From Methanosarcinales archaeon (GTDB lineage: Archaea > Halobacteriota > Methanosarcinia > Methanosarcinales > Methanocomedenaceae): a DNA stretch of 46,131 nucleotides. Position 1 is the first letter of the stretch. Each line of letters begins with the position of its first letter. Shown here one piece after another: positions 3,968 to 46,131 of this stretch. The position numbers were made by a program, and so were the translations under genes. Where the stretch lies: assembly GCA_014859725.1 (NCBI GenBank), contig JACUTQ010000003.1:1-46131 (forward strand), in the 5' to 3' direction. A model generated the notes under the pieces. The model was not told the DNA's origin. It searched no databases and worked only from the letters and a program-made list of their open reading frames with translations.

Positions 3968-3975
3968 ATTCGCTT

Positions 3976-5301
3976 ATGCTGTTCGAAAATCAAGATGTAA
4001 CTGTTGTGGATTTGACCCACGGCGGCATTCCCCTGGCCCTGAATATCGCACAATTTGCCCGTGGTGTTACTGGTATAGACGTATACGGCACCGTGGATAG
4101 CGTAGTCCTTACAGGGCTTGAAAAGGACGGCATCGAAATTTCCAAGACAATTCAAAGTGATACCGACCTGATAGTGGCACCCGTACACCTGGACCCGGAC
4201 TTATTACCTGACAGTAATAGCAATGAAATAATTACCCATCACAGAGCAGTAGGCGAGATTCTATTGAATACTGATATGGGAGCAAAAGTCATCGAGATCA
4301 CAGGGACAGGCGCCAAAACAAGCACTGCTACATTACTGGCAGACATGATGTCCCGACAGATGTCTGTGATATCCCACACAAGCCGGGGGGTGGAACAATG
4401 GCAAAATGGAGCACCAGAAATGGTGCATCACGGCCTGAGCATTGCCCCGGGCAGTATACTTGAAGCATTGGAATACACACGAGGCATCAATCCTGATCTA
4501 TATATTTTCGAGATTTCGCTGGGAGGAACGGGAGCTGCTGATCTGGGAATAATTACTAGCCTGGATAATGAATATACCATAGCTGGCGGCAGCAGGTCAT
4601 CATCTATGGCAAAAAAACAGATCATTGATTATGCAAAGCAGGGCAGTACACTGCTGATAAATGCAAATGCGGGTGAAATTGATCTGCCAAACAACATAAA
4701 ATCAGTAAGTTTTAGCGATACCTCAAAAGATGCTGAATTTTCGATTGATAATTCCAAAAGTGACTGGATTATTCGTTTCAGCAAACAGACCTTCAGGTTT
4801 GCCCCAAATACCGGTTATGATCCAAATGCATATACAACCGCTATTATTTGCGCAACAGCCGCATCCACACTGATGGGGGTGAGTCCTGAAACAATTGAAT
4901 CGACCCTATCTGAATTCCATGGAGTCAATGGCAGGATGCAGGTTGTGAAGCACTCAGGCCGGATAATGCTTGATAATTCCAACTCTGGTATGAATCCAGC
5001 ATCATTAGAGCATGCCCTGGAATATTCCCGCAATATTTCAGAAAATAACAGCAAGCGTGTATATATTATAGGTGAGGAAGCAGAGCAGGTATGCGAAGGT
5101 CTTGACCCCGAAGCTGTCAATACTTTTGTCAGTGAACACGACCGGGAACTTGATAATATCATTCTGGTGGGGGAGCGCATGCATGCCATTACCGGAGATA
5201 ATATTCAACATGCCGGTAGCCTTAAAGATGCTATTGGAATCGCAGAATCACTGACTTTGAAAAACGACATGATAATCTCATGTGTTAAATGTTTCAGATA
5301 A
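3976..5301 (+). CDS. cfbE: Coenzyme F430 synthetase CfbE (Mur-ligase-like)
   Basis: Catalyses the last step of F430 synthesis, an ATP-dependent closure of the carbocyclic ring of 15,17(3)-seco-F430. The 441-residue protein resembles MurD-type ligases. An ATP-binding loop, TGTGAKTST, lies near residues 111-119, after an N-terminal domain of about 100 residues. The central and C-terminal ligase domains follow, with GVNGRMQVV near 315 and [10 protein letters not shown] near 332. No strong Shine-Dalgarno is seen before the ATG, and the 8-base gap from cfbA suggests translation coupled to it. The stop is 16 bases before the cfbD start. Confidence 0.88.
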
Positions 5302-5317
5302 ATCGGAGGATAATAGA

Positions 5318-6448
5318 ATGAGCCCAGTACCTTTACAAAAAGAACCCACGATCATACATCCCAGACCCAGTTCCATTGTAGCTGCCCTTTACACACTTCG
5401 GGACCTTGATGTGGACGTGGTCATCCTGCACGGCCCTCCGGGATGCAGTTTCAAACATGCCAGGTTACTGGAAGAGGATGGGCTGCGTGTAGTTACTACT
5501 GCCCTGGACGAATCGGGTTTCGTGTTCGGAGGACACGACCAGCTGGTTAAGCTGCTTGAAAAAGTCATTGAGAAATTCGATCCTAAAAGGATCGGGATCG
5601 TAGGAACCTGTGCCAGCATGATCATTGGTGAGGAACTGCACGAAGCTGTTCTGGAGGTAAATCCCGATGTACCTGTTATTGAAGTTGAGGTCCACGCAGG
5701 TTACCCCAACAATACCAAAGGTGTTATCATTACACTGGAATCGGCATTGTCTGCCGGTATCTTGAGCGAGGAAGAATTCCAGCGCCAGAAGGTTCTGCTT
5801 GAAAAGGCCACTGAAGTGGAAAAACGCCACGGTGCGGCTTCCAAAGAGTATCTGGAACCCAGCCGGGGTGATACCAAATACACAGTGGCGAAAAGGATTA
5901 TAGAGTTATTAAAGGCAGGCAAGAAAGGTCTCAACATCCTGAATGCCAAAAAGGAGACGGGTTACATGTTCGCTGATATCAATGCGGCTGTGAACCAGGT
6001 GGCAAAGGAACTTGGCTCCACATCTGAAATTATCAATATGGCAAACCTTGATGAGAACCTGGGACTTGACAGGGTAAAATCCCATGCCAGAAACATTAAT
6101 CGTGATCTTCAGAAAATGGGCATTGAGGTACACGAGATTATCGGCGGGCTGGATGAATACCCTGTTGCAGGAGAGCTGGTCAACCGGCTCATAGCTGAGA
6201 AATATTCAGATTTTGATTTTGCAGTGATAACAGGTGTGCCCCATGCCATTCCAATGGACAACCTTCAGGGCATGGAGGTTATCTCAGTGACCAATGGTCC
6301 CAGGCAGGTACTGCCGTTAAAGGAGATGGGGCATGAATATGTGGTGGTTGAGATAGACCTCCATCCCAAGACTCTTGGTGTTAGCAGCATCGTGGAATCC
6401 GAGTTCGGGGCAACTCTGCGGGAGTTGGCACGGGAGGAGGGGACATGA
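5318..6448 (+). CDS. cfbD: NifD-like subunit of Ni-sirohydrochlorin a,c-diamide reductase, CfbD
   Basis: Partner of CfbC in the nitrogenase-like complex that reduces Ni-sirohydrochlorin a,c-diamide in F430 synthesis. It has the NifD/BchN-like fold, with a [4Fe-4S] cysteine in GPPGCSF and a second in VGTCAS. The ATG at 5318 is chosen because GGAGG at 5305-5309 stands 8 bases upstream; an in-frame ATG at 5282 lies inside cfbE and has no such site. This gives 376 residues, a normal length. It overlaps the cfbC start by four bases (ATGA), so the two subunits are translationally coupled. Confidence 0.92.
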
Positions 6449-7230
6449 AACAGATCGCTATTTATGGAAAAGGGGGGATCGGGAAGAGCAGTACAGCATC
6501 CAATGTTGCAGCTGCCTGTGCTGATGAAGGATACAAGGTCACGATTGTCGGCTGCGATCCAAAAAGCGATTCCTCAATTACACTACTGAGAGGCGAGCGC
6601 ATCCCTACGGTTATGGAACTGATGCAGCAGGGATTTGAAATCTCAGAAGAAGATGTTGTATTTGAAGGTTACAAAGGAGTTAAATGTGTGGAAGTCGGGG
6701 GGCCTGAACCCGGGATAGGCTGTGCTGGCCGGGGGATTATCGTGGCTATTAAAATGCTGCAGAAAAAATCCTCTGTAATGGCGGACAGTGACCTTATCAT
6801 ATATGATGTTCCAGGGGATATTGTGTGCGGGGGGTTCGCTGCCCCGATCAGGAAAGGGCTGGTCAATGATACGTATGTTCTGACATCTGGCGAATATATG
6901 CCATTATATGCGGCAAATAATATCTGCAAGGGTTTTTCCCGTCTCGGTAACCATTTGAACGGCGTGATCTGCAACAGTCGAAATGCTGAGAACGAAGAAG
7001 CCATTGTCAAAGCCTTTGCTCAGGAATTGGGCAGCGAGCTGCTGGCTTTTATACCCAAGGACCCCATTGTCCAGACCTGTGAGCGGGCGGGATATTCTGT
7101 GATTGAAAAGCAACCTGACAGTGAGATCGCTGGAGTGTATCGCAAACTTGCCAGGTCGATAATGGATGGGATTTCATCCTGCAAACCCCAACCTTTGACA
7201 GATGCCAGATTGCGGGAGTTAACAGGATAA
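6445..7230 (+). CDS. cfbC: NifH-like reductase component CfbC
   Basis: ATP-dependent electron donor to CfbD in F430 synthesis, homologous to nitrogenase iron protein. The 261-residue protein starts with the P-loop GKGGIGKSS (about residues 8-16). The two cysteines that bridge a [4Fe-4S] cluster between the subunits of the homodimer are visible in GIGCAGRGI and [10 protein letters not shown]. It ends the four-gene cfb run. It differs from true NifH by its context: no nifDK genes are nearby, and cfbA and cfbE flank the pair. Confidence 0.93.
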
Positions 7231-32949: not shown

Positions 32950-33125
32950 GGTGCACCTTTCCTGGGGTACCTTATTCCTAATACACGTTAAATATCCTTT
33001 TGTTCTTGAATCTTAATAAAGCAGAAAAATAACATAGCTATTCTGCTTTTAGTTCCCATACTGCCAAACGTATCAAGATATGGATAACATTTGCTGGGGA
33101 GGGTTTATGATCGTTGGGTGAAATA

Positions 33126-35771
33126 ATGGAAAAAAGGCACATGGAGAAAATACAATCAAGAATGATAAGTAGCGGTGTTCCTTCCCTGGATGAGGTAATA
33201 CAGGGTTTCAGGCTGGGTGATAATATAGTCTGGCAGGTTGACGACCTGGATGACTATTCCTTTTATGCTGACAGGTTCATTCACCAGGGAATCAGGGACG
33301 GTTATCAATGCGTTTATATCAGTTTTGCTCCCCATAACCCGGTGCTCAAACCAAGGGAATATCTGGATCTAATAGAGGTTGACCCGGGCAAGGGGTTTGA
33401 TTTCTTCAGCAGTGAAGTGCACAGGATAATAGAGAAATACGGCAAACAGGTTTTTTATGTCTTTGACAACCTGTCCTCCCTGGTCGTTGAATGGGCCACA
33501 GATGAACTTCTTGCCAACTTTTTTAAAGTCACCTGTCCTTACATGTTCGAACTTGATACGATTGCGTTTTTTGCCCTGACAAGGGGCAAGCACAGTCATT
33601 CTGCGGTTGCCAGGATACGGGATACAACTCAGATACTGATCGATGTGTACCGTGTGGACTCCAGAATTTACTTGCATCCTTTGAAAGTCTACGACCGTTA
33701 TTCTCCACAGATGTTTTTGCCCCATGTTATTTCCAATGGAAAGCTGGTGCCTGTATTCAATAGTGGGGATGCTGCAGCAGTTTCCACCAGCCATCGTAAG
33801 AAGGTCCTCCAGAGTACCAGTACCATTGCTCCATGGGACAGCGTGTATAAAAAACTAACACAGTACTGGGAAACCGGTATGGTGTCACAATCCACAGAAA
33901 CAATAGCCCTCAAACAGGAACTTTCACGGATGATCATAGGGAATCATCCCCTTTTCAATAAACTTGCTGACAATTATTTGACCCTCGAAGACCTTTTGAA
34001 TATTAGAGACCGCATGATCGGGTCTGGCAGGATTGGGGGGAAAGCCGCGGGCATGTTGATTGCCAGAAGCATTCTGCTTAAAGACGGTGAAAACCGCGAT
34101 TTTTCAGGAATTCTGGAGGCACATGACTCATTCTATATCGGATCAGACGTATTTTTCACTTTTCTGGTGGATAACGACCTTTTTCGTCTGAGGCTGCAGT
34201 TATCAGAGAACTCCAGGCTTACGAGGGAAATGTTCAAAGAGGTGGAAAATCGTTTCCTTAACGGAAAATTTCCGGAAGAGATTACAGAACAGTTTCGCAA
34301 CCTGATAGACTATTTTGGACAGGCACCCATAATTGTGAGGTCCAGCAGTTTACTGGAGGACAGTTTTGGCAATGCGTTTGCAGGCAAATACCGGAGCGAA
34401 TTCTGTACCAACCAGGGCAACCCTGATGAAAGACTTGAAGAATTTATAGGCGCCATTAAGCTTGTATATGCAAGTGCATTAAATCCAGACGCCTTTTCAT
34501 ACAGAAGGGTCCACGGTCTCGAAGATACCGATGAAAAAATGGCAATTCTTGTACAGCGTGTATCTGGTATACCATATAAGCACTATTTCTTTCCGACCCT
34601 TGCCGGTGTGACATTTTCAAAAAATCTTTTCGCCTGGACTCCCCGTATAGACCCAGAGAAGGGAATGATCAGACTGGTATTCGGTCTGGGTACCCGTGCA
34701 GTGGACAGGGTTGGCAGGGATTATCCCAGAATGATAGCAATCAGTCATCCGGAACTCAGACCCGAGATAGGCATGGAAATTACAAAATATTCCCAGTGGG
34801 AGGTCGATCTGCTTGACCTTAAGGATAATGAGTTCAGGACACTGCCTGTTTCTGAACTGAACACTGATGGTGACTACCCCAATCTTAAATTATTTATGTC
34901 CTTATACAAGGACGGTTATCTTTATGACAAGCATACCGGACGTATAGACGGGGTATCGGGCAATCTTATTCTAACTTTCAACAACCTCATAAGAAAGACC
35001 GATTTTGTAGAGAACATAGGAGAAATGTTGAAAATAATCGAAAAGGGTTATGACTACCCGGTGGATATGGAATTTACAGCATTTGTGGATTCAAATAACA
35101 GGACGAGAATCAACGTATTACAATGTCGTACCATGAAGATACCAGGTATAACCGGTCCCGTTGTCATACCGGCTGATATACCTCAGAAAAATATCTTATT
35201 CAGGTCCAGCAAGATCATTAATGGGGGAGTGATTAGTGATATTCGGTACATAGTCTACATAGACCCGAGAGTGTATGCAGGGATTGAAGAACTGCATGTG
35301 AAGAAATCAGTGGGGCGTGTGGTTGGCAGGATCAATGAACGACTTCGTCTGGATGGGGAAGCATATATTTTAATGGGACCCGGGAGGTGGGGCAGCAATA
35401 ATATTGACCTTGGTGTAAACATAACCTATTCAGATATAGACAATACTGCCGTTCTTGTTGAAATTGCCAGGGGGGGAGGCGGCCATACACCTGAAGTATC
35501 CTATGGTACACATTTCTTCCAGGATCTGATGGAAGGCCATATCATCTACATGCCTGTGTATCCTGATACACCTGAATCAGAGTTCAATGAGGAATTTTTC
35601 GAAGTATCAAAAAATATACTGGCCGAACTGTTGCCTGATGACAAGATGTTTTGCAGTTTTATCAAACTGATAGATGTTCAATCCTCAGAATCTGTTGCAC
35701 ACGCTGCAGTCGTGGCCGATCCCCAGAGCCAAAGCTCTCTCTGTTATCTTATGTCCGCTTCCTCGCCCTGA
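33126..35771 (+). CDS. Fusion of a degenerate RecA/KaiC-like domain with a PEP-synthase-like ATP-binding domain
   Basis: An 881-residue protein. The N-terminal ~220 residues resemble KaiC/RAD55-type domains (SGVPSLDEVIQGFRLGDNIVW, then YVFDNLSSLVVEWATDE), but the Walker A lysine loop is missing, since LGDNIVWQVDDLDDYS takes its place. A domain like the ATP-binding part of PEP synthase/PPDK (about 285-560) follows, with RIGGKAAGM and IIVRSSSLLEDSFGNAFAGKY. The C-terminal part has GPGRWGSNNIDLG near 760 and GGGGHTPEVSYGTHFF near 790. No phosphohistidine domain or PEP-binding barrel was recognised. GGGTGA before ATG 33126 fixes the start. Related large proteins occur in other anaerobes; the function is unknown. 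Confidence 0.75.
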   Translation: MEKRHMEKIQSRMISSGVPSLDEVIQGFRLGDNIVWQVDDLDDYSFYADRFIHQGIRDGYQCVYISFAPHNPVLKPREYLDLIEVDPGKGFDFFSSEVHRIIEKYGKQVFYVFDNLSSLVVEWATDELLANFFKVTCPYMFELDTIAFFALTRGKHSHSAVARIRDTTQILIDVYRVDSRIYLHPLKVYDRYSPQMFLPHVISNGKLVPVFNSGDAAAVSTSHRKKVLQSTSTIAPWDSVYKKLTQYWETGMVSQSTETIALKQELSRMIIGNHPLFNKLADNYLTLEDLLNIRDRMIGSGRIGGKAAGMLIARSILLKDGENRDFSGILEAHDSFYIGSDVFFTFLVDNDLFRLRLQLSENSRLTREMFKEVENRFLNGKFPEEITEQFRNLIDYFGQAPIIVRSSSLLEDSFGNAFAGKYRSEFCTNQGNPDERLEEFIGAIKLVYASALNPDAFSYRRVHGLEDTDEKMAILVQRVSGIPYKHYFFPTLAGVTFSKNLFAWTPRIDPEKGMIRLVFGLGTRAVDRVGRDYPRMIAISHPELRPEIGMEITKYSQWEVDLLDLKDNEFRTLPVSELNTDGDYPNLKLFMSLYKDGYLYDKHTGRIDGVSGNLILTFNNLIRKTDFVENIGEMLKIIEKGYDYPVDMEFTAFVDSNNRTRINVLQCRTMKIPGITGPVVIPADIPQKNILFRSSKIINGGVISDIRYIVYIDPRVYAGIEELHVKKSVGRVVGRINERLRLDGEAYILMGPGRWGSNNIDLGVNITYSDIDNTAVLVEIARGGGGHTPEVSYGTHFFQDLMEGHIIYMPVYPDTPESEFNEEFFEVSKNILAELLPDDKMFCSFIKLIDVQSSESVAHAAVVADPQSQSSLCYLMSASSP

Positions 35772-35860: not shown

Positions 35861-36020
35861 GGTAATAGGTTGCCTCTGGATAATTTTTCACGATTTTTAG
35901 TAGAAAGCTTTTAATAAGAAATAAGGAAACGGCAAGTCCATACCTATTATATTTGTTTTGAAAAATAGTTATACTTTTATAGTATTTAGTAAGTAAGTGT
36001 GTGAAATTATCAGGAGGAAG
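35861..36020 (+). promoter_or_regulatory. gdhA leader with a conserved motif and predicted stem
   Basis: GGTAATAGGTTGCCT at 35861-35875 can pair with two later segments. TAATAGG (35863-35869) pairs with CCTATTA (35943-35949), and TTGCC (35870-35874) pairs with GGCAA (35931-35935). Together they make 12 base pairs with a 7-base bulge on the 3' side. A nearly identical first motif (14 of 15 bases) and the GGCAAGYCCA second motif recur at a like spacing before the nuoE gene at 39220-39296. A later dyad, ATACT/AGTAT at 35971-35985, and AGGAGG complete the leader. It may be a regulatory RNA or a pair of protein sites; the transcript start is not known. Confidence 0.5.
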
Positions 36021-36026
36021 AAAATT

Positions 36027-37271
36027 ATGGAGAATAATCCGTTTGAGATATCGCAGCGGCAGTTGGATGAGTGTGCAAGGATTCTCGAGTTAGAACCCAG
36101 TGTACAGGCAGTCCTTCGAGTACCGATGCGTGAACTGCACATGTCATTACACGTACGTATGGATGACGGCAAGGTCCGTGTATTTCCAGCCTACAGGGTT
36201 CAATATAATGATGCCAGAGGCCCAACAAAAGGTGGAATTCGATTCCATCCTGATGAGACCATTGACACTGTGAGAGCTCTTGCTGCCTGGATGACATGGA
36301 AGTGTGCACTGCTTGATCTGCCTCTTGGCGGAGGGAAAGGGGGAGTGATCTGTAATCCCAAGGAGATGTCTGATGCTGAACTGGAACGCTTAAGCCGGGC
36401 CTATATTCGGGGTTTATCCCAGTTTATCGGTCCGGATAAGGATATCCCTGCACCTGATGTCTATACAAATCCGTTAATCATGGCGGCCATGATGGATGAG
36501 TATTCAAAAATTCAGGGTAAGAATGTATTCGGTGTTATTACCGGTAAACCGCTATGTGTGGGTGGCAGCTGCGGGCGGCAGGATGCAACAGCCCGTGGCG
36601 GCTGGTATACTATTAGAGAAGCTTCCGATGAAATTGGACTGGACATTCAAAATGCCACCGTTGCCATCCAGGGCTATGGGAATGCAGGATATTATGCAGC
36701 ATCCCTTGGTAAATCCCTGTTTGGGTGCAAAATAGTGGCTGTCAGCGATAGCAAAGGTGGAATATTCAACAAGGAAGGACTTATTCCGGATGCAGTGTAT
36801 GAGCATAAAACCAAAACCGGTTCTGTAATCAATTTCCCGGATTCTGAACCCATTACTAATGAAGAACTCCTGGAGTTGGATGTTGATATACTTATTCCGG
36901 CAGCGCTGGAAAATATCATCACAGATAAGAATGCTCAGAACATCAAAGCCAAGATCGTCGCTGAGCTGGCTAACGGTCCCACCACGCCGGAAGCAGATGA
37001 CATCCTGTTTGAAAATGGTGTTCATCTGATACCTGATTTCCTCTGCAACGCCGGTGGAGTGACAGTATCCTACTTTGAGATGGTACAGAACCTGTATATG
37101 TACTACTGGGATGAGGATGAGGTTTACAGGCGTTTGGATAAGAAAATATCTGATTCATACCATTCCACATTGCATGCTTCCAAAAAATACAGCATTAATA
37201 TGCGTAAGGCTGCATATACGGTCGCTGTGGAACGTGTGGTTGAAGCAATGGAACATCGCTGTTGGGTTTAA
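36027..37271 (+). CDS. gdhA: Glutamate dehydrogenase, NAD(P)-dependent
   Basis: Interconverts glutamate and 2-oxoglutarate plus ammonia with NAD(P)H. The 414-residue, hexameric-type enzyme has the substrate-binding motif RVFPAYRVQYNDARGPTKGGIRFHP (about 50-75). The catalytic lysine loop is LPLGGGKGGVICNP near 97, and the coenzyme fold has VAIQGYGNAGYYAA near 211. DKDIPAPDVYTNP is also conserved. AGGAGG precedes the ATG at 36027. The gene faces a paralogous glutamate-synthase-like gene across a terminator and opens a nitrogen-assimilation island. Confidence 0.94.
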   Translation: MENNPFEISQRQLDECARILELEPSVQAVLRVPMRELHMSLHVRMDDGKVRVFPAYRVQYNDARGPTKGGIRFHPDETIDTVRALAAWMTWKCALLDLPLGGGKGGVICNPKEMSDAELERLSRAYIRGLSQFIGPDKDIPAPDVYTNPLIMAAMMDEYSKIQGKNVFGVITGKPLCVGGSCGRQDATARGGWYTIREASDEIGLDIQNATVAIQGYGNAGYYAASLGKSLFGCKIVAVSDSKGGIFNKEGLIPDAVYEHKTKTGSVINFPDSEPITNEELLELDVDILIPAALENIITDKNAQNIKAKIVAELANGPTTPEADDILFENGVHLIPDFLCNAGGVTVSYFEMVQNLYMYYWDEDEVYRRLDKKISDSYHSTLHASKKYSINMRKAAYTVAVERVVEAMEHRCWV

Positions 37272-37351: not shown

Positions 37352-38959
37352 TTATGCCAGGATAGTCTCTGTTTGGTAGAGGATATCTTCCGCTTCTTGT
37401 CTGTAGGCATCCATCACATATGGTATACCTGATATTCTGGTAGCCTCTTCAGTAAGACTCATGAGGTCGTTTCTGGATATTGTGGACAAAGAGAAATTCC
37501 TGCTTCCTGCCATCAATTGTTGCAATCCTGTCCTGGTCTTCTGGCAGTAACTGTATATTCCAATAGCGCCCAGCGGGATGTCCTTGACATCACTGCCGTA
37601 CTTATCAAGTAGTTCCTCGTAGTGTACAAAGATTTCCTCTGGTCTGCGCCCGAATTCTGACACAGTCTTTGGCAGGTCATCTTCCTCGATCCATTTCGCA
37701 ATGTTCTTCCCCACCATACCAGGGATCATAAGTCCACGACCCATGCATACTGCTTTCACATCGGGGGCGCCCATTGCCAGAGCTTTGAATATCCCGTCCT
37801 CGCTTGAGAATCCTCCGGCCATTGCCAGATCAGGTACTCTCTTACCCCGAGCTTTTAGCTTCTCTGCAAACTCATGTACAAGGCTCTGGAGATAGAACGT
37901 GGGTATGCCCCATTCATTCATCATGGGCCAGGGGCTCATACCTGTGCCGCCTGGTGCACCATCAAAGGTGACAAGATCCAGTTTTGCTTCGGTCCCGTAT
38001 GCCAGCGCCATGGCAGTTTCCACCATTGAATATGCGCCAGTCTTAAGTGTAATCCGCTTGAATCCCAGATCACGCAGCCGGTCGATCTCTGCCATAAAGT
38101 CTTCTCTGGTAACGAATCCCAGGCGGGAATGTCGTTCAAATTCCCTTATAGCTCCGATCTTATAGGCTTCTTTGATATCGTGTGCTTCAGGATCAGGTGT
38201 AACTAAGTATCCCCTTGCCTTCAATTCTCTGGCTCTGTCAATATCTTTAACCTTGATCTCGCCGCCTATGCATTTTGCACCCTGGCCCCATTTGAGCTCA
38301 ATGGTATCCAGATCGTGTTTACTGCTTACATATTCGGCTACACCCAGTCTGGTGTCTTCTACATTCATCTGGACCAGGATCTCGCCATAACCCTCATGGA
38401 ATTTTCTGTAGGTATTGATCCTTCTATCCATCTCAGGGGATTTGTTGATCTTGCCCTGGGAATTTAGTTCCAGTTCAGGATCAACGCCGCAGACGTTCTC
38501 TCCGCAGACCAGGGTAATGCCCGAGATGGCCGCACCTATGGCAAAATGTTCCCAGTTCTTTCGTGCAATATCTGTGGAGCCCAGGGCACCCGTGAATATG
38601 GGCAGTTTCATCTTGACCTTATGGTTCCAACCGTATTCGGTCTCGGTATCGACATTCGGAAATATGGCAGTGTCGGGCCCCGGCATCACATCGATCGGGA
38701 GTCCGTACGCACCCACTGCATATCCCTGTATGTTCAGGTGGGAATAGTCTACCGGGTAATTTTTATCGGCTCCTGCCGTACTTTCGCCAAAGGGTCCGGG
38801 GTATAATACTTCCCTGCCCCTGAATGTGGCTTTAAATATCTCGCAGTTGCCTCTGCACCCGTCTACGCACCGGGTACAGATTCCGGAAACCGGAGCCACA
38901 CTCCTAGAGCGGTTAGAGGTTCCGGTAGCTTCATTTGCATTTGGTATTCTAAGATTCAC
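37352..38959 (-). CDS. FMN-binding glutamate-synthase-like protein (paralogue 1)
   Basis: A 535-residue protein of the FMN-binding glutamate synthase (GltB central domain) family. The N-terminus carries four cysteines at residues 28, 31, 35 and 39 (CX2CX3CX3C) that could hold an iron-sulfur cluster. The FMN barrel shows ELKWGQGAKCIGGEIK, LVTFDGAPGGTGMSPWPMMNEWG and CMGRGLMIPG. It lacks the N-terminal glutaminase and the GXGXG domain of bacterial GltB, and no such genes or gltD lie nearby. It runs divergently from the nuoEFG-like genes, with a regulatory region of 417 bases between. The product may be a glutamate synthase subunit or a different flavin-dependent oxidoreductase. Confidence 0.8.
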   Translation of the reverse strand: MNLRIPNANEATGTSNRSRSVAPVSGICTRCVDGCRGNCEIFKATFRGREVLYPGPFGESTAGADKNYPVDYSHLNIQGYAVGAYGLPIDVMPGPDTAIFPNVDTETEYGWNHKVKMKLPIFTGALGSTDIARKNWEHFAIGAAISGITLVCGENVCGVDPELELNSQGKINKSPEMDRRINTYRKFHEGYGEILVQMNVEDTRLGVAEYVSSKHDLDTIELKWGQGAKCIGGEIKVKDIDRARELKARGYLVTPDPEAHDIKEAYKIGAIREFERHSRLGFVTREDFMAEIDRLRDLGFKRITLKTGAYSMVETAMALAYGTEAKLDLVTFDGAPGGTGMSPWPMMNEWGIPTFYLQSLVHEFAEKLKARGKRVPDLAMAGGFSSEDGIFKALAMGAPDVKAVCMGRGLMIPGMVGKNIAKWIEEDDLPKTVSEFGRRPEEIFVHYEELLDKYGSDVKDIPLGAIGIYSYCQKTRTGLQQLMAGSRNFSLSTISRNDLMSLTEEATRISGIPYVMDAYRQEAEDILYQTETILA

Positions 38960-39376
38960 GATTTAGCCTCTTGGTTTTTAGGCAGCTAGTGATGGCTACA
39001 GTAACACTTTTCCTGAAATGTAACCCCCTGATAAAAAAGGTATGATTTCTGGAGTTTTCCAGGTATTAGATGTGTTGGCAAAATGAATCTGGAGGGGTTA
39101 TATTTCAGGTAAGTATTCTGTCGACCGCCAATAGGCAACCGGTAGATTACTATCTAACTATACTATAAATAATTATCCCTAACTTGGGTGTAAATGAATA
39201 AATTTTTTATGTGATTGTGGGTAAAAGGTTGCCTTTAATAGGGTTAACTTTAAATATAATATAGTAAGAAAGTGGCGTATGGCGTTGGCAAGCCCACAAA
39301 AAAATTGTTTAACCTATGTTAAAAAATTTTGAATTTGAATAAATCTGGAGAATTATATGAAAACAGGAGGTATTAG
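38960..39376. promoter_or_regulatory. Divergent regulatory region between glutamate-synthase-like and nuoE-like genes
   Basis: This stretch holds a nearly perfect 16-base inverted repeat, CCTGAAATGTAACCCC (39012-39027) and GGGGTTATATTTCAGG (39094-39109), with a nested CTGGA/TCCAG hairpin at 39049-39062. A GGTTGCC core occurs on the minus strand at 39133-39139, and GGTAAAAGGTTGCCT on the plus strand at 39220-39234, followed by GGCAAGCCCA (39287-39296). An AT-rich TATA-like core (39160-39178) could serve both directions. A TTTAAC/GTTAAA hairpin (39308-39323) and AGGAGG (39365-39370) precede nuoE. The region is dense in structure and probably holds shared regulatory sites. Confidence 0.55.
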
Positions 39377-39832
39377 ATGACGGATAGCGAATCCAAACTT
39401 TGTTCAATAGTAGACAAATATAATGCTGAACAAGGTTCGCTGATCTCCATATTACAGGATATCCAGGCAGAATATCAGTTTTTGCCCCAGGAAGCCCTGA
39501 AATATGTGGCAAACAGATTGAATATACCTGGAGTTCAGGTATATGGAGCAGCTACCTTTTTTAAGGCATTCAGCTTGAAACCCAAAGGCAGGCAGCAGAT
39601 ACATGTGTGTATGGGTACGGCCTGCCACGTGAGGGGGTCACAGATCGTGCTGGAAGAACTTGAACGCGAACTGGGTATTAATGCCGGAGATACAACATCG
39701 GACCGAGAATATACGCTTGAAAAAGTCAACTGCGTGGGAGCATGTGCTCTGGGTCCGGTTGTAGTTGAGAACGAGACATATCACGGACAGATGACCCCTA
39801 TCAAGATCGAAGGTCTGTTCAACGGTAAATAG
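39377..39832 (+). CDS. NuoE / HydC-like [2Fe-2S] subunit
   Basis: A 151-residue thioredoxin-fold protein with the four cysteines that bind a [2Fe-2S] cluster. They are two in VCMGTACHVRGS (about residues 76 and 81) and two in NCVGACALGPVV (about 117 and 121). It is homologous to NuoE of complex I and HydC/HndA of NAD-linked hydrogenases. AGGAGG stands six bases before the ATG. It is the first gene of a run with NuoF-like and NuoG-like genes and a glutamate-synthase-like gene, so it likely carries electrons within that complex. No hydrogenase subunit is near. Confidence 0.88.
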   Translation: MTDSESKLCSIVDKYNAEQGSLISILQDIQAEYQFLPQEALKYVANRLNIPGVQVYGAATFFKAFSLKPKGRQQIHVCMGTACHVRGSQIVLEELERELGINAGDTTSDREYTLEKVNCVGACALGPVVVENETYHGQMTPIKIEGLFNGK

Positions 39833-39850
39833 GTCTGAAGGTGAATTAAT

Positions 39851-41701
39851 TTGAAGCTAACTTCAATTGAGGAACTTGAGGATCTGCATCAGCAAATACT
39901 GGCAGGTAAAGATCCTGATAAGCAGTGCATTGCAGTATGCGGTGGACCTGGATGTCTGGCAAAACAATGCACTGAGGTCAGGGATGCTTTTGAAAAAGAG
40001 ATTCTGGACAAAGGTCTAACTGACAAAGTGGATCTAAGGACTACCGGATGTCACGGATATTGTGAAGCAGGACCTATTGCCCTGATATTCCCGGATGAGA
40101 TATTCTATCAGAAATTGACAGTCCAGGATGTCGCTGAAATAATTGATACTACGATAACCAGTGGTAAAGTGGTTGACAGACTGCTCTTTAAAGATGCCCT
40201 GACCGGTCAGTCAATTATAAATGAAAAAGATATCCCGTTCTATAAAAAGCAAACACAGCATCTCCTGGGTAATAACAAAAAGATCGATCCCCACAGCCTG
40301 GAAGACTATCTTGCTAATGGTGGATACTCAGCTCTTACTAAAATGCTGGGCAAAATGGGACCACTGGACGTACTTAATGAGATCAAACGATCAGGTCTTC
40401 GGGGTAGAGGTGGCGGTGGTTTCTCTACAGGACGAAAATGGGAGTCAACCCGAAATGCTAAAGAAGAGATCAAATATGTCATATGCAACGCTGATGAAGG
40501 TGATCCCGGTGCTTTTATGGACCGCAGTATCCTTGAGGGCAACCCCCACAGCGTACTTGAGGGCATGATTATTGCAGCGTATGCCATTGGATCCAATGAA
40601 GGGTATATCTATGTGAGGAATGAATACCCGCTGGCACTGCAGAATATTATTATAGCTATTGAACAGGCTAAACAATACGGAATACTGGGTTCCAACATTT
40701 TGAATTCAGGATTCAGTTTTGATGTTAATGTAAACCGCGGTGGCGGCGCCTTCATATGCGGTGAGTCAACAGCCCTTATGGCCTCACTGGAAGGTAAGCC
40801 AGGTGAACCCAGAGCCAAGTATATCCACACCTCTGATATGGGACTGTGGGATCGCCCTTCCAATTTGAACAATGTGGAAACCCTGGCCAATGTGCCCCTG
40901 ATCATAAACAAAGGGGCAGACTGGTATTCAGGTATAGGCACCGATTCCAGTAAGGGTACCAAAGTGTTCAGCCTAGTAGGCAAGATCAACAATACCGGAC
41001 TGGTGGAAGTGCCAATGGGCAGGACCCTGCGTGAGATCATCTATGATATCGGCGGCGGCATCCCCAATGGTAAGTCCTTCAAGGCGGTACAGACCGGGGG
41101 GCCCAGTGGTGGTTGTATCCCTGAAAGCCTGATCGATCTGCCAGTTGATTACGACCGGTTGACAGAAGTCGGTTCAATGATGGGATCAGGCGGTATGATC
41201 GTGATGGACGAGGATACCTGCATGGTGGACCTGGCCAAATATTTCGTCAACTTCCTGGAAGAAGAATCATGCGGTAAATGTGTACCCTGCAGGGAAGGAC
41301 TGCTGCGTCTGGGTGAGCTGCTCACAGACATTACCGAAGGAAAGGGCAGGATGGAAGACCTGGAACTTATCGAGGATCTCTCAGAGGTAATGAGGGATGC
41401 AGCACTGTGCGGTCTGGGCAAGACAGCACCTAATCCTGTTATGTCCACATTGAAATATTTCAGGGACGAGTACGAAGCTCATATCAGGGACGGTGTGTGT
41501 CAGGCAGGCGTATGCGAGGAACTGATCACATACAAGATCGATCCTGAAAAGTGCAATGGCTGCGGTCTATGCCTGAAGCATTGTCCGTCAGATGCCATAT
41601 CAGGAGAAAAGAAACAGCCCCATGTGCTGGATACTGAAAAATGCATCAAATGCGACATGTGCTATGAAGTATGCAGGTTTGATGCTGTGGGAAAGAAGTG
41701 A
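39851..41701 (+). CDS. NuoF / HydB-like flavoprotein with extra ferredoxin domains
   Basis: A 616-residue NADH-binding, FMN-containing subunit. In order it has: a thioredoxin-like [2Fe-2S] domain (Cys30, Cys35, Cys67 and Cys71), the FMN/NAD domain (GLRGRGGGGFSTGRKW at 182-197, CNADEGDPGAF at 212-222), an SLBB-type region, a [4Fe-4S] site (ESCGKCVPCREG with a later C near 519), and a C-terminal 2x[4Fe-4S] ferredoxin (CNGCGLCLKHCP and CIKCDMCYEVC). This domain order matches HydB/HndC of electron-bifurcating hydrogenases more closely than complex I NuoF. It may read NADH to drive a partner enzyme. The probable partner, from context, is the glutamate-synthase-like protein. Confidence 0.9.
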   Translation: MKLTSIEELEDLHQQILAGKDPDKQCIAVCGGPGCLAKQCTEVRDAFEKEILDKGLTDKVDLRTTGCHGYCEAGPIALIFPDEIFYQKLTVQDVAEIIDTTITSGKVVDRLLFKDALTGQSIINEKDIPFYKKQTQHLLGNNKKIDPHSLEDYLANGGYSALTKMLGKMGPLDVLNEIKRSGLRGRGGGGFSTGRKWESTRNAKEEIKYVICNADEGDPGAFMDRSILEGNPHSVLEGMIIAAYAIGSNEGYIYVRNEYPLALQNIIIAIEQAKQYGILGSNILNSGFSFDVNVNRGGGAFICGESTALMASLEGKPGEPRAKYIHTSDMGLWDRPSNLNNVETLANVPLIINKGADWYSGIGTDSSKGTKVFSLVGKINNTGLVEVPMGRTLREIIYDIGGGIPNGKSFKAVQTGGPSGGCIPESLIDLPVDYDRLTEVGSMMGSGGMIVMDEDTCMVDLAKYFVNFLEEESCGKCVPCREGLLRLGELLTDITEGKGRMEDLELIEDLSEVMRDAALCGLGKTAPNPVMSTLKYFRDEYEAHIRDGVCQAGVCEELITYKIDPEKCNGCGLCLKHCPSDAISGEKKQPHVLDTEKCIKCDMCYEVCRFDAVGKK

Positions 41702-41705
41702 TATC

Positions 41706-42407
41706 ATGTCAGAAAAGAGAGGCCAGATGGTCAAGTTCATGTTAAACGGTGCAGAAGTGCAGGCTGATCCCAACTGGAACCTGCTGGAAGCAGTACGGTT
41801 CTATGGAATAGACATCCCCACATTGTGCTATAATGAAGGGCTTACTCCCTATGGTTCATGCAGGCTCTGTGTGGTGGAGGTCGGCGGCGGGGACAGGACC
41901 AAACTGGTCACCTCATGCATGCATCCTGTGGAAGAAGGGCTGGAGGTACGCACCCACAGCAAACGGGTGATAAAGACCAGGAAAATGATAATGGAACTGC
42001 TGGTTGCCCGCTGTCCCAGCTCAAAGACGCTGCAGGATATGGCTTCCAGGCTTGAATTACAGGAGGTCAGGTTCACACCCTTAAACGACGACTGCATACT
42101 GTGCGGCCTGTGCGTGCGCATGTGCGAGGAACAGATGGTGGCCAGAGCCATAGGGTTTGCCGGCAGGGGTGTTGACAGATACATCACTACGCCTTTTGAT
42201 ATGAACTCAGAGGAATGCCGCAAATGTGGTGCATGTATGCATATCTGTCCGGTCTGTGAACTTAGGTGCCAGGGACCCCAGGCAGAGACCGTACTGTGCA
42301 GCGGGTGTCTCAACACCGAACCGGTATGCGCCAATACCTATGATGATGCCATGTGTTTCATGGTTCCGTGCCTGTCATGTGTGAAAAGACCAGAGGATGT
42401 GAAATGA
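41706..42407 (+). CDS. NuoG / HydA-N-terminal-like iron-sulfur protein
   Basis: A 233-residue protein that resembles the N-terminal part of NuoG/HydA. It has a plant-type [2Fe-2S] domain (CYNEGLTPYGSCRLC near 39-53, with SCMHP near 69) and a 2x[4Fe-4S] part (CILCGLCVRMC near 122, CRKCGACMHIC near 166). The usual histidine-bearing HxxxCxxC site between them is absent, since ELLVARCPSSKTL takes its place. A C-terminal tail has about eight more cysteines (CELRC, VLCSGC, PVCANTYDDAMC and PCLSC) without a hydrogenase domain. The start at 41706 lies just past the preceding stop. The electron exit is probably here. Confidence 0.82.
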   Translation: MSEKRGQMVKFMLNGAEVQADPNWNLLEAVRFYGIDIPTLCYNEGLTPYGSCRLCVVEVGGGDRTKLVTSCMHPVEEGLEVRTHSKRVIKTRKMIMELLVARCPSSKTLQDMASRLELQEVRFTPLNDDCILCGLCVRMCEEQMVARAIGFAGRGVDRYITTPFDMNSEECRKCGACMHICPVCELRCQGPQAETVLCSGCLNTEPVCANTYDDAMCFMVPCLSCVKRPEDVK

Positions 42408-42472
42408 GAATTGAATCAAATTATTGAATTTAAATAAATTGAAGAAAGTTATAAAATATTTGGAGGATCAAA

Positions 42473-44053
42473 ATGTCATTGACAAGAATAAATGCGACAG
42501 CGGCTACGCTGACAAAGAACAGAACAGAGGGATCGGTAAGTCCCTTAAGTGGCATGTGCGTTACCTGTGTAGACGGGTGTATCGGCATGTGCGAGATCGG
42601 TAAGTCTGCATACCGGGGCTCGGAGGTAATTTACCCCCAGCCCTACGGGATCACTACTTCGGCTTCTGAAAAGGACTATCCAATAGATCTGAGCCATTTC
42701 ACCATCCTGGGGACCGCAGTAGGGGCTCATGGAATTGAGGCAAACAGCGAAGTTGCCATTTTCCCGAACGTGAACCTTGAGGTGGCAATCGGCAAGGATA
42801 AGAACATTAAACTGAGACTGCCGTTCATCATTCCAGGTCTTGGCAGCACAGCAGTTGCCAGCAATAACTGGGACGGACTTGCCATTGGTTCTGCCATGGC
42901 AGGCATACCTCTGACAATTGGCGAAAATGTGTGCGGTATGGACCCTGACTCTGTCATAGAGAATGGAAGGGTGGTGCATTCACCTGACCTTGCCAGCAGG
43001 GTCAAACTGTACAAGGACTGGCAGCGGGACGGATACGGTGACATCATTCTTCAGGCCAATGTGGAGGATACGGGCCTGGGCGTCCAGGAGTATGGTCTGG
43101 AAAAACTGGGTGTGGAGACCGTTGAACTGAAATGGGGCCAGGGAGCCAAGGATATTGGCGGCGAGGTAAAGCTCAATACCCTGGATCGGGCACAGCTGCT
43201 GCGCAGACGTGGGTATGTTGTATTGCCTGATCCAATGGATCCTGACGTTATTGCTGCTTTCAATACTGGCAGTTTCCATGAGTTCGAGAGGCACAGCCGG
43301 ATCGGCATGGTGACAGAGGAAGGATTCATGAGCCGTGTAAAGGAACTGAGAGATGCCGGTGCCAAGCACGTGTTCCTAAAGACCGGTGCATACAGGCCGG
43401 CAGACCTGGCCAGGGCAGTGAAGTATGCCAGCAAGGCTGAACTTGACCTGCTTACCGTGGACGGTGCCGGCGGCGGTACAGGTATGAGTCCCTGGAGAAT
43501 GATGAACGAATGGGGTATGCCCCAGGTTGAGATCTACTCACTGCTGTACCAGTATCTGAAGAAGCTGGACGATCGCGGCGAGTATGTGCCCGACGTAGCT
43601 GTAGCAGGCGGTATTACCCTTGAGGACCAGGTCGTGAAGGCACTGGCTCTGGGAGCACCGTACTTCAAGCTAGTCGGTATGGCCAGGGCACCCCTGGCAG
43701 CGGCCATGGTTGGCAAGACCATTGGCAGTAAGATCAATGAGGGACGCGTACCTGTGTATATCAGCAGGTTCGGCAAATCTGTTGATGAGATATTCATATC
43801 AGCTCCTGAACTGAAGAAGATGTATAATGGCAGATATGACGGGATCCCGCCAGGTGCTATAGGTGTGTACACGTACTTCCAGAGGCTTGCTCAGGGTATG
43901 CGTCAGATGATGACAGGCAACAGGAAGTTCGCTCTGCAATATATTGAAAGAGACGATATTGCAGCCCTTACCAGAGAAGCGGCTGAGGTTTCCGGCATCT
44001 CCCATGTGATGGATGTGGACAAGGACGAAGTGGAAACGATCCTGAATTCCTGA
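42473..44053 (+). CDS. FMN-binding glutamate-synthase-like protein (paralogue 2)
   Basis: A 526-residue paralogue of the minus-strand gene at 37352-38959. It has the same four cysteines (29, 32, 36 and 40) and the same FMN-barrel landmarks (ELKWGQGAKDIGGEVK, TVDGAGGGTGMSPWRMMNEWG). It differs at the substrate loop (VGMARAPLAA in place of VCMGRGLMIPG). It follows the NuoG-like gene by 65 bases with GGAGG ahead of the ATG, so it may share that transcript, although a TTATAAAATA stretch at about 42449 could be a promoter. No glutaminase domain is present. Together with NuoEFG-like proteins it may form an NADH-linked glutamate synthase or an unrelated flavin oxidoreductase. Confidence 0.8.
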   Translation: MSLTRINATAATLTKNRTEGSVSPLSGMCVTCVDGCIGMCEIGKSAYRGSEVIYPQPYGITTSASEKDYPIDLSHFTILGTAVGAHGIEANSEVAIFPNVNLEVAIGKDKNIKLRLPFIIPGLGSTAVASNNWDGLAIGSAMAGIPLTIGENVCGMDPDSVIENGRVVHSPDLASRVKLYKDWQRDGYGDIILQANVEDTGLGVQEYGLEKLGVETVELKWGQGAKDIGGEVKLNTLDRAQLLRRRGYVVLPDPMDPDVIAAFNTGSFHEFERHSRIGMVTEEGFMSRVKELRDAGAKHVFLKTGAYRPADLARAVKYASKAELDLLTVDGAGGGTGMSPWRMMNEWGMPQVEIYSLLYQYLKKLDDRGEYVPDVAVAGGITLEDQVVKALALGAPYFKLVGMARAPLAAAMVGKTIGSKINEGRVPVYISRFGKSVDEIFISAPELKKMYNGRYDGIPPGAIGVYTYFQRLAQGMRQMMTGNRKFALQYIERDDIAALTREAAEVSGISHVMDVDKDEVETILNS

Positions 44054-44107: not shown

Positions 44108-44150
44108 TAATGCTATTTTAAAGACCTTAATGACCTTTTGGTTCATATCA

Positions 44151-44897
44151 ATGGATAATCTTATGGTAAATTCTTATAAAATAAAACTGGCAAAAAGGTA
44201 TTCAGATTTATTGAAAAACGTGCTGGACGATAATTTAATTTCAACTTTTTTATACGGTTCAGTGGTTCGAAATGAGGATAACGAATCAAGTGATATTGAT
44301 CTAATGGCGATTGTTAATAAAAGTCCTGCTGCTGAGCAATTGAAGATTCTTGGAGAATCCGGGCGATTTAATGAAATTAAGGGTTTTGGAGATTTCAAGG
44401 ATATTTCCTGTGCAATTCTGACACAAGATAACTTTTTAAATCTTCTCGAACTGGGTGCACCAAGGGAAGCAGTCAACCCTCTAAGAGAAGCTGTTGTATT
44501 ATTGGATACCGGATTTATTGAAGGTCTTAAGAAGCAACTCGAAGACGGTTATATTTCTCTGAGGAAAGATGCATACCGGGATTATTTACGATATGGGGAT
44601 ATCCGCCGATCATATCTGATGAGAAGTATTGAGAATGAGGACCTGGAGGCCGCCCGCTCAGATGCTGCGGCGGCTGCGTCTCATTATCTGCGTGCGTATT
44701 TTCTTTGTGAGGCTGGAGAGATGATTGTCTCAAAGAGGGCGCTGGTTGAGGGGATACATGAGGGGTGTCCTGGGATTGCGAGGGTGTATGATGGGGTTTT
44801 TGGGGGGGAGCTTGATGTGGATGTTGTATTGGATTCGCTGGATGAGATAAGGGAGTGGGTGACTGAGCATATTTTTGCTTTGAAAAACCGCGGATGA
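44151..44897 (+). CDS. Nucleotidyltransferase with a HEPN-like C-terminal region
   Basis: A 248-residue protein beginning with a minimal nucleotidyltransferase domain: LYGSVVRNEDNESSDIDLM near residue 31 has the GS-x10-DxD signature that holds the catalytic metals. The C-terminal ~110 residues are helical (IRRSYLMRSIENEDLEAARSDAAAAASHYLRAYFL), like HEPN-type partners. Such pairs are usually encoded as separate genes (toxin-antitoxin or defence); here they seem fused. No clear ribosome binding site was found, and starts at 44130, 44151 or 44163 are all possible. The last part of the gene is richer in G than its surroundings. Function not known. Confidence 0.7.
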   Translation: MDNLMVNSYKIKLAKRYSDLLKNVLDDNLISTFLYGSVVRNEDNESSDIDLMAIVNKSPAAEQLKILGESGRFNEIKGFGDFKDISCAILTQDNFLNLLELGAPREAVNPLREAVVLLDTGFIEGLKKQLEDGYISLRKDAYRDYLRYGDIRRSYLMRSIENEDLEAARSDAAAAASHYLRAYFLCEAGEMIVSKRALVEGIHEGCPGIARVYDGVFGGELDVDVVLDSLDEIREWVTEHIFALKNRG

Positions 44898-45047
44898 ACG
44901 CAAATATTGGAATAATTATTACTAAATACTTTCACAACGCACTAAGTAATATTTTATTAGTGATGTGTTCTCTTTGAATGCCAGGGAGAAAAGAATAACA
45001 ACCTATTTGACTTTATAAAAGATGTAATCAAAAAGTGCTGAAGCCAT

Positions 45048-46131
45048 ATGAACAATAATATAATTGCACCAAATATTATAGATAACAGCCCAGATAGGGA
45101 ATTCATAAAGGTTGTTAAAGACCAACTTAAAAGATCTAAGGAAGCAAAATTTGCCATTGGTTATTTCTTCCTTAGCGGTTTCTCACTTGTAAATGATGAT
45201 TTTCCTGAACCTGATAGATATACAAGTGAACCATTTTTGCAGATTGTAATGGGGGATGAAACCACTTATCCGACAAAAGAAGAATTGGTTGCAGGATATA
45301 ATTTAAAAGATATCTTCAAACAACGGATGATAGAAGAACTACAAAAAACTGAACCGAATGAAGAAAAAATAATACATCTTTCAACTCTTAGAGAGTTTAT
45401 AGCCAATAATATTATCGATGTAAGGCTTTTTGACAAGTCAAGACTTCATGCAAAGTTGTATTTGTTCTTAACCAGTCCTGATGAAGAATTCTCATCTCCA
45501 GGTCTGGCTGCTGTGGGTTCATCTAATTTTACCTCAAGTGGTCTAACTACAAACAGGGAATTGAATGTGTTACTTACTTCAAGGGAAGAAGTTCGGTATT
45601 TAGAAAAGTGGTTTGATAATCTTTGGGAAGATGCAATTGAATTCAGAGAAGACTTATTGAAGGTTATTGACCTTTCAGGAGTTTTGCCAGACAGTCCTTA
45701 TCCAAAGATAGGTCAGATGGTAGAACCTGAAATATTGTTTAAGTATCTTGTTTATAACTGGTTTGAAGGACGTGTTTTAAATCTACTTAAGAAAGATATT
45801 CTGATGGAATTTCAGCTTGTTGGAGTGGTGAATGCTGTCAATATACTCAATTTCTATAATGGTGTTATACTGGCGGATTCTGTAGGATTGGGTAAGAGTT
45901 TTATGGCTTCTGCTGTAATTGAGGAATTCATTTATGGAAAACACCCCACATGGACTGCAAATGATGAAAAAGAACCTTCTGTCTTATTGATTTTACCACC
46001 TTCTGTAATATCTCAATGGGAAGAGTTATTGATTGGTGAGATAGGTGAGGATATAAGGATTCGATTATCTTCAGGCGAAAAAGTGAATGTTACTTCTGGT
46101 TATTTCCTTACAAACAGGTTAAAGAAAGTCA
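45048..46131 (+). CDS. PLD-domain SNF2-type helicase, truncated by the window end
   Basis: An open frame of 361 codons still running at the right edge. The first ~200 residues have a phospholipase-D-type domain, with RLHAKLYLFL (an HxKx motif) and VGSSNFTSSGL followed by NRELNVLL. A SNF2-like helicase begins near residue 285, with motif I as ILADSVGLGKSFMA and a motif Ia-like LLILPPSVISQWEE. PLD-SNF2 fusions of this sort are known in restriction and other anti-phage settings. TGA at 45039-45041 shows that no upstream extension is possible. No strong ribosome binding site is visible. The C-terminal half cannot be described from this window. Confidence 0.8.
   Translation, partial: MNNNIIAPNIIDNSPDREFIKVVKDQLKRSKEAKFAIGYFFLSGFSLVNDDFPEPDRYTSEPFLQIVMGDETTYPTKEELVAGYNLKDIFKQRMIEELQKTEPNEEKIIHLSTLREFIANNIIDVRLFDKSRLHAKLYLFLTSPDEEFSSPGLAAVGSSNFTSSGLTTNRELNVLLTSREEVRYLEKWFDNLWEDAIEFREDLLKVIDLSGVLPDSPYPKIGQMVEPEILFKYLVYNWFEGRVLNLLKKDILMEFQLVGVVNAVNILNFYNGVILADSVGLGKSFMASAVIEEFIYGKHPTWTANDEKEPSVLLILPPSVISQWEELLIGEIGEDIRIRLSSGEKVNVTSGYFLTNRLKKV

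Follow-up and report, generated by a model that had tools for sequence, protein, structure and literature searches.

Which enzyme is specified by a run of NuoE-, NuoF- and NuoG-like genes that leads directly into a gene for a glutamate synthase (GltB)-like protein? This question is raised by a 46,131-nucleotide stretch of DNA (contig JACUTQ010000003.1 of assembly GCA_014859725.1; hereafter the window), whose source is a methane-oxidiser-related archaeon, a relative of Ca. Methanoperedens. We call the GltB-like protein encoded downstream of NuoG GltB' or B-type, and its divergently encoded paralogue A-type. In our reading, to which we assign a probability of roughly 0.45, NuoEFG and GltB' form one soluble complex of the Bfu superfamily in which a GltB-type subunit serves the third substrate, most likely by reducing 2-iminoglutarate to glutamate. 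The enzyme would then resemble a glutamate synthase but have no glutaminase, and would be coupled to NAD(H) and, in addition, to ferredoxin (or NADPH); this is the most likely interpretation and not an established one. The subunits, their cofactor ligands, their conserved linkage, a domain swap and a nitrogen-gene context are what we observed; complex formation, substrate, direction and coupling are what we infer from them.

The Bfu family is defined by its BfuB and BfuC domains (Schut et al., 2022; PMC9304861), to which NuoF and NuoE respectively correspond here. When the NuoF-like protein was searched against all PDB sequences, the top four matches were bifurcating HydB/BfuB chains with 770-800 bits, and non-bifurcating NuoF/FdsB chains scored 376 bits at most. 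It also showed PF01512, PF10589 and Fer4 above cut-off, with SLBB at 26 bits against a cut-off of 27, and the NuoE-like PF01257 gene required as BfuC is encoded alongside it. In virtually all BfuB proteins the [2Fe-2S] cluster B2 has a histidine ligand that non-bifurcating homologues lack; in A. mobile BfuB the B2 ligands are C438, C476, H525, C531 and C536, the C476 position being Thr in about two thirds of BfuB proteins (PMC9304861). The aligned positions of the window NuoF hold C457, Thr, H544, C550 and C555, and the Cys and His ligands were kept in all 80 NuoF homologues. The four Cys ligands of NuoE were likewise conserved in 66-67 of 67 homologues.

The NuoG-like subunit has one [2Fe-2S] and two [4Fe-4S] sites, with neither a His-Cys3 site nor a catalytic domain, and its best PDB match is a 247-aa BfuA (9mqx_A). 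Its Fer2 and Fer4 domains, the absence of A3 (His-Cys3) and A5, and the position of GltB' directly downstream are those of a Type 2 BfuA, a form that depends on a separate subunit to handle the third substrate (PMC9304861). In addition, its tail contains C181, C188, C198 and C225 in 72 of 72 homologues and C201 in 71 of 72. As judged from sequence, the trio is a bifurcating-type Bfu core and not a generic NuoEFG, and all testable defining features of a Type 2 Bfu enzyme are present, SLBB lying 1 bit under the Pfam cut-off. The activity expected of such a core would be to bifurcate electrons among NAD(H), ferredoxin and a third substrate. An earlier note on this DNA is upheld in these respects: the bifurcating HydB/BfuB type of NuoF by the PDB bit scores and the B2 ligands, its C-terminal 2x[4Fe-4S] ferredoxin by Pfam Fer4, and a NuoG free of the His-Cys3 site and of any hydrogenase domain by domain search and Cys alignment.

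The conservation of the gene order was examined in one genome per species, in which at least 580 relatives were found with A- and B-types pooled, and the best 80 loci were analysed. These encode GltB' proteins 66-86% identical and are spread over about 20 bacterial and archaeal phyla, the phyla being judged by record titles and most genomes being metagenome-assembled. Where the contig sufficed, NuoG lay directly upstream of GltB' in 78 of 79 loci, NuoF in 69 of 74 and NuoE in 61 of 62. Among the misses, three NuoF cases were GltD-bearing pieces cut by the contig end, and that in L098 was due to an over-extended start of the open reading frame (ORF). Two exceptions appear to be real: in L055 (1-5313) a glutamate dehydrogenase (GDH) gene stands directly before NuoG-GltB' with no NuoE or NuoF between, and in L067 (9489-11578) a truncated NuoG is preceded by unrelated genes. 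The GltB' proteins form one clade, with a Shimodaira-Hasegawa-like approximate likelihood ratio (SH-aLRT) support of 99, which excludes both the A-type and an ANME-1/methanogen group (ANME, anaerobic methanotrophic archaea); GltB-like proteins of either type occurred in 141 of 295 sampled genomes of the phylum. The linkage, repeated in about 20 phyla, is more than chance, and the NuoE-NuoF-NuoG-GltB' architecture is well supported. The earlier note had treated NuoEFG and the downstream GltB-like gene as one module that should be kept together in relatives and should not be found mainly with other partners. This is what we saw: nearly all of the best 80 GltB' loci carry the trio, the trio was found only with GltB' among the relatives of the window, and no second NuoF is present in this genome.

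Several further features of these loci should be mentioned. A Dethiobacter genome (L068) has, besides a complete NuoEFG-GltB' operon, another and more divergent GltB-like gene (4129-5712), whose product branches as sister to the GltB' clade; this gene lies 1 kb upstream of the operon, between two genes resembling those for IclR-type regulators. In genome G036 a B-type GltB' fragment with an in-frame stop (L042, 3040-4092) adjoins an A-type gene and has no NuoEFG, apparently as a decayed operon. A small Cys-rich ORF without Pfam match precedes NuoE immediately in 16 loci (L070:6102-6443 and similar), and sigma-54 response regulators occur near the operon in 33 loci, with many bacterial ones among them (L057:2714-4081 and similar). 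Many bacterial NuoE homologues are longer at the C-terminus by about 110-130 aa, and this extra part contains Cys pairs like those of zinc ribbons (L079:5011-5901, L070:6412-7347).

The GltB' protein itself is a remote relative of glutamate synthase (GltS). Its PF01645 match covers only the C-terminal part of the Pfam model. In a profile comparison whose template set contained no A-type protein, GltB' matched canonical archaeal GltB with 98.9% probability (E=1.4e-17, 347 columns) and 28% identity within the aligned part. The two share 24 strictly common residues, among them those of the motifs KxGQGAK..GG and DG.GGTG. The four-Cys motif at residues 29-40 of GltB', conserved in 89-90 of 90 homologues, aligns with one ferredoxin motif of canonical archaeal GltB. 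A PDB sequence search with the GltB' family returned only short chance matches to designed TIM barrels, and no NCBIfam model matches the GltB-like proteins. An AlphaFold2 (AF2) model had a mean pLDDT (predicted local distance difference test) of 81, and its Foldseek neighbours included GltS (1llw/1ofd), lactate oxidase and IDI-2. The search places the model among flavin mononucleotide (FMN) TIM barrels generally, so that the substrate is not identified by the fold alone.

The homologues differ at the end of NuoF. The protein ends in a 2x[4Fe-4S] ferredoxin tail, as in the window, in 29 of the 80 loci. At the same point, 46 of 75 resolvable loci (the 80 minus five) have instead a Fer4_20 plus Pyr_redox_2 unit, that is, a GltD/NfnB-type FAD/NADPH module with conserved nucleotide-binding motifs; 40 of these 46 have NuoF and six are truncated. 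On the NuoF tree as on the GltB' tree, the tail state shows at least seven changes when only well-supported branches are counted, and 12-15 by parsimony. One and the same enzyme may thus take its second supply of electrons from either ferredoxin or NADPH. Since GltB naturally receives its electrons from GltD, the GltD fusions favour glutamate-synthase-like chemistry. It must be noted that the earlier note had reported neither glutaminase nor GltD nearby, which is correct for the locus, there being no GltD partner in the window, but does not extend to the 46 homologous operons in which GltD is fused to NuoF.

Neighbouring genes also point to nitrogen metabolism. A GDH gene was found within 10 kb on either side of the operon in 14 of the 80 loci, from about ten phyla, when about one such locus is expected by chance, allowing a generous four such genes per 3 Mb genome. 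The ten proteins tested were GDHs of two different subfamilies, and in L065 the GDH gene overlaps the end of GltB'. Amt-GlnK-GlnA genes are neighbours of the operon in L174 (an ANME-1-type genome), L096 (a member of the Dehalococcoidia) and L034 (a relative of the window), and GlnA/GltB1/GltB2 are so in L175, another ANME-1-type genome. The glutamate or nitrogen role proposed in the earlier note is thus favoured by the neighbours GDH, GlnA, Amt and GlnK as well as by the GltD fusions. With regard to regulation, the NrpR operator has the consensus GGAA-N6-TTCC (PMC2723118), which was present 38-152 nt upstream of the A-type gene in five of five genomes of the Methanoperedens family; over all 32 promoters examined, seven NrpR-type sites were observed and 0.24 expected. 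In three of the five Methanoperedens genomes the site lies in a divergent promoter region shared with NuoEFG-GltB'. The motif is not enriched across a 3.3 Mb Methanoperedens genome (83 occurrences versus 81 in the control), so that the information lies only in its constant placement ahead of the A-type gene in all five Methanoperedens genomes.

The A-type gene is widespread in the Halobacteriota, often stands without NuoEFG in the relatives examined, and adjoins Amt, GlnK, GlnA or GltB1-3 in several of them. Its product falls in a clade separate from GltB'. The possibility that the two GltB-like paralogues make up one heteromeric enzyme was ruled out, because the A-type and the trio with the B-type are each common without the other. 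The earlier suggestion of an NADH-driven glutamate synthase, or of an enzyme exchanging electrons between NAD(H) and ferredoxin, is supported in part: the module, the type of core and the nitrogen context agree with it, the divergent paralogue is not part of the module, and glutamate synthesis, whether driven by NADH alone or coupled to ferredoxin, is a putative activity.

The complex could work as follows. NAD(H) would exchange a hydride with the FMN on NuoF, and ferredoxin would exchange electrons through the 2x[4Fe-4S] tail and the B2 cluster of NuoF; in other lineages NADPH would enter through the fused GltD instead of the ferredoxin tail. The two streams, NAD(H) and ferredoxin or NADPH, would merge on NuoF/NuoE, and electrons would then pass through the NuoG clusters and the Cys-rich NuoG tail into GltB', first to its N-terminal [4Fe-4S] cluster and next to its FMN. 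There they would most likely reduce 2-iminoglutarate, formed from 2-oxoglutarate and free ammonia, to glutamate; free ammonia is proposed as the nitrogen source because GltB' lacks a glutaminase domain. The standard potential of the glutamate couple is about -0.12 V. By our arithmetic, with 0.1 mM 2-oxoglutarate, 0.1 mM ammonium and 100 mM glutamate it falls to near -0.33 V, which is lower than NADH (about -0.28 V) and higher than the NADH/ferredoxin mean (about -0.39 V). With the couple between these two values, confurcation would allow a reaction of the GDH kind to proceed without ATP when ammonium is low. Coupling to ferredoxin would in this way add driving force at low ammonium and high glutamate, when NADH alone is too weak, and would save the ATP of the glutamine synthetase/glutamate synthase (GS/GOGAT) route. 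The reverse direction, glutamate oxidation, may be possible in protein-degrading bacteria.

Several observations weigh against glutamate synthesis by this complex. GltB' has no [3Fe-4S] cluster, as the canonical residues C419/C425/C430 align with K415/I421/V426. No glutaminase (PurF-type) domain occurs in GltB' or in the immediate neighbour genes, the GXGXG domain is absent, and no Pfam match was obtained in GltB' besides PF01645. A long insertion lies near the GltS active-site region and the PPHHD stretch is replaced, so that the substrate may differ. The genome also has a GDH and a canonical split archaeal glutamate synthase (GltB1/GltB2/GltB3), the latter on another contig, and most loci have no GDH or GS genes near the operon. 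The NrpR-type sites belong to the A-type gene and their five genomes represent one lineage, and no NrpR-type operator was found in the window's own divergent promoter. Finally, the standard potential of the glutamate couple is so high that ferredoxin would be unnecessary under such conditions. Judged by its sequence, GltB' is not a canonical GltS as defined, though its function may be similar.

The main rival is a Bfu-type complex of the same composition in which GltB' acts on another 2-oxo acid, imine or amine, e.g. an N-substituted glutamate, rather than on 2-oxoglutarate/glutamate. The remoteness of GltB' from canonical GltB, the lost [3Fe-4S] site and long insertions, the lack of discrimination among FMN TIM barrels in the fold search and the presence of a canonical glutamate synthase in the genome would all agree with it, and a mid-potential substrate would fit Bfu energetics better. 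However, the 46 GltD fusions, the GDH, Amt, GlnK and GlnA neighbours and the active-site motifs common with GltB point to glutamate, and we regard a different substrate as unlikely, though a serious competitor.

It is more doubtful still that the enzyme is a plain NADH-driven, glutamate synthase-like one, in which NuoEFG only delivers electrons from NADH with neither bifurcation nor confurcation. Non-bifurcating diaphorases of NuoEF type are common (PMC9304861), and one donor could suffice, as the standard glutamate couple lies well above NADH. Nevertheless, all 80 homologues retain the B2 ligands, among them the His that non-bifurcating relatives lack, and every resolved NuoF has either the ferredoxin tail or the GltD module at that position, which argues that a second redox partner is under selection.

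Very improbable, in our estimation, is a mainly catabolic role as a glutamate (amino acid) oxidase that feeds NAD+ and ferredoxin or NADP+ by bifurcation. Many presumably fermentative or protein-degrading hosts (e.g. Aminicenantes, Bacteroidetes) and the GDH genes in the neighbourhood could be cited for it, but it would be energetically tight, the couple (about -0.12 V standard) lying above the NAD/ferredoxin mean even at high glutamate, when it is near -0.35 V, and the Amt-GlnK-GlnA neighbours indicate assimilation, at least in archaea and Dehalococcoidia. That NuoEFG and GltB' are separate enzymes sharing an operon is hardly credible, even if the A-type paralogue without NuoEFG suggests that the fold can work alone and the Dethiobacter sister copy has no NuoEFG directly upstream, given an order kept across about 20 phyla and a Type 2 BfuA that by definition needs a third-substrate subunit, GltB' being the only gene always there.

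Compared with known systems, the complex of NuoEFG and GltB' proposed here is close to the Type 2 Bfu enzymes (Wor-Bfu, Por-Bfu, Bam-Bfu; PMC9304861), with which it shares BfuB, BfuC, a short BfuA, the same ligands including the B2 His, and an extra third-substrate subunit. In contrast, that subunit is GltB-like here, and none such is listed in PMC9304861, where a word search for 'glutamate' and 'Glt' gave none and 17 BfuB clades are unassigned; moreover, more than half of the resolved homologues here have GltD in place of the BfuB ferredoxin tail. PDB entry 9mqx (chains A and B), also with a short BfuA, gave the best match to NuoF (799 bits) and NuoG (130 bits), while no chain of any PDB entry matches GltB' by sequence. 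The Sporomusa-type Nfn, Stn (PMC7483475, PMC10482914), resembles the GltD-fused homologues in combining a bifurcating core with a GltD-type NADPH module. However, the GltD of Stn lies in the NuoG-like subunit (PMC10482914) and Stn has no GltB, whereas GltD, where it occurs here, is on BfuB in the position of the ferredoxin tail, and the 233-aa NuoG has no GltD domain. Unlike in HydABC and NiFe-HydABCSL, NuoG ends after the ferredoxin domain and the Cys-rich tail, with no H-cluster domain, and no hydrogenase gene lies next to the operon within the window. By these features the predicted complex is neither Stn nor a hydrogenase. Bacterial GltBD and the archaeal split GltB1/2/3 share with GltB' the PF01645 FMN domain and its motifs, and GltD is the donor also in the fused homologues; the differences are the missing glutaminase, [3Fe-4S] cysteines and GXGXG domain, and the entry of electrons via a Bfu core. 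The candidate F420-dependent glutamate synthases (FGltS) of ANME (FrhB10 clusters; PMC9012536) are similar in that a glutamate-synthase domain is proposed to be coupled to an unusual redox module in ANME-related archaea, but they use an FrhB/F420 module and no BfuABC genes are described for them in PMC9012536. No published description of the NuoEFG-GltB' cluster was found in the open literature, subscription literature being outside the search, and it is a bifurcating-complex type without published description in the literature searched.

The features of the locus are provided in Table 1. The intergenic gaps between NuoE, NuoF, NuoG and GltB' are 18, 4 and 65 nt. The NuoG ORF from 41592 is overlong and overlaps NuoF, while the ATG at 41706 fits both the relatives and the alignment. 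All gene positions and orientations claimed in the earlier note, including GDH beyond the paralogue, agree with ours.

Table 1. Coordinates of the NuoEFG-GltB' operon and adjoining features in the window.
Feature	Position	Strand	Basis or remark
GDH (context)	35997-37271	+	PF00208/PF02812
A-type GltB-like paralogue (context, outside the proposed complex)	37352-38959	-	49% identity to GltB'
Divergent promoter region, A-type gene / NuoE	38960-39376	none	Without NrpR-type operator
NuoE-like / BfuC, thioredoxin-like [2Fe-2S] protein, 151 aa	39377-39832	+	PF01257 E=8.8e-48
NuoF-like / BfuB, TTG start, FMN and NAD(H) site, 616 aa	39851-41701	+	PF01512, PF10589, Fer4
B2-cluster His/Cys ligands of NuoF: H544, C550, C555 (+ C457)	41480-41515	+	Alignment to A. 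mobile BfuB
NuoF C-terminal 2x[4Fe-4S] ferredoxin tail (B3/B4, proposed ferredoxin contact)	41528-41689	+	Pfam Fer4
NuoG-like / Type 2 BfuA, 233 aa	41706-42407	+	PF13510, Fer4_7
Cys-rich NuoG C-terminal tail, residues 181-225	42246-42380	+	Cys conservation; candidate electron exit towards GltB'
GltB' (B-type), GltB-like FMN TIM-barrel protein, 526 aa	42473-44053	+	PF01645 E=4.7e-17
GltB' N-terminal CxxCxxxCxxxC (C29, C32, C36, C40), predicted [4Fe-4S] entry cluster	42557-42592	+	

Elsewhere in the window, a PPDK_N-only protein (33114-35771) has an N-terminal extension that is RecA/KaiC-like by eye; PPDK_N proteins with other N-termini occur near the operon in seven of the 80 loci (L069, L078, L095, L098, L105, L124, L129), often together with GDH. 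Glutamine synthetase followed by the nitrogen repressor NrpR is encoded at 526-2844, and the window therefore carries two nitrogen loci. A cluster at 3569-7230 resembles coenzyme F430 (cfb) genes with a nitrogenase-like pair, as identified by eye only. At 44130-46131 a nucleotidyltransferase-like gene is followed by one for a phospholipase D (PLD)/SNF2-type protein that runs off the window end and has weak similarity to an anti-phage phospholipase D protein.

More tentatively than the reading given at the outset, we propose that NuoEFG-GltB' is a widespread and undescribed confurcating enzyme. It would make glutamate from free ammonia at no cost in ATP, driven by NADH together with ferredoxin (or, where GltD has replaced the tail, with NADPH), and would add a third pathway to GDH and GS/GOGAT; the low-potential entry domain of its core has repeatedly been exchanged between ferredoxin and GltD. 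The module is common in uncultured lineages. The complex probably ties ammonia or glutamate chemistry to the strongest electron carriers of the cell. If the proposal is true, energy-limited anaerobes, among them methane-oxidising archaea, Aminicenantes, Zixibacteria, Planctomycetes and Dehalococcoidia, would fix ammonia into glutamate by redox energy and not by ATP, and the Bfu family would gain a new class of third substrate and ammonia assimilation a third basic route. Regardless of what GltB' acts on, the recurrent exchange of the ferredoxin tail for GltD on a bifurcating core that is conserved in other respects is a natural experiment on which of the B2-B3-B4 parts are needed for bifurcation.

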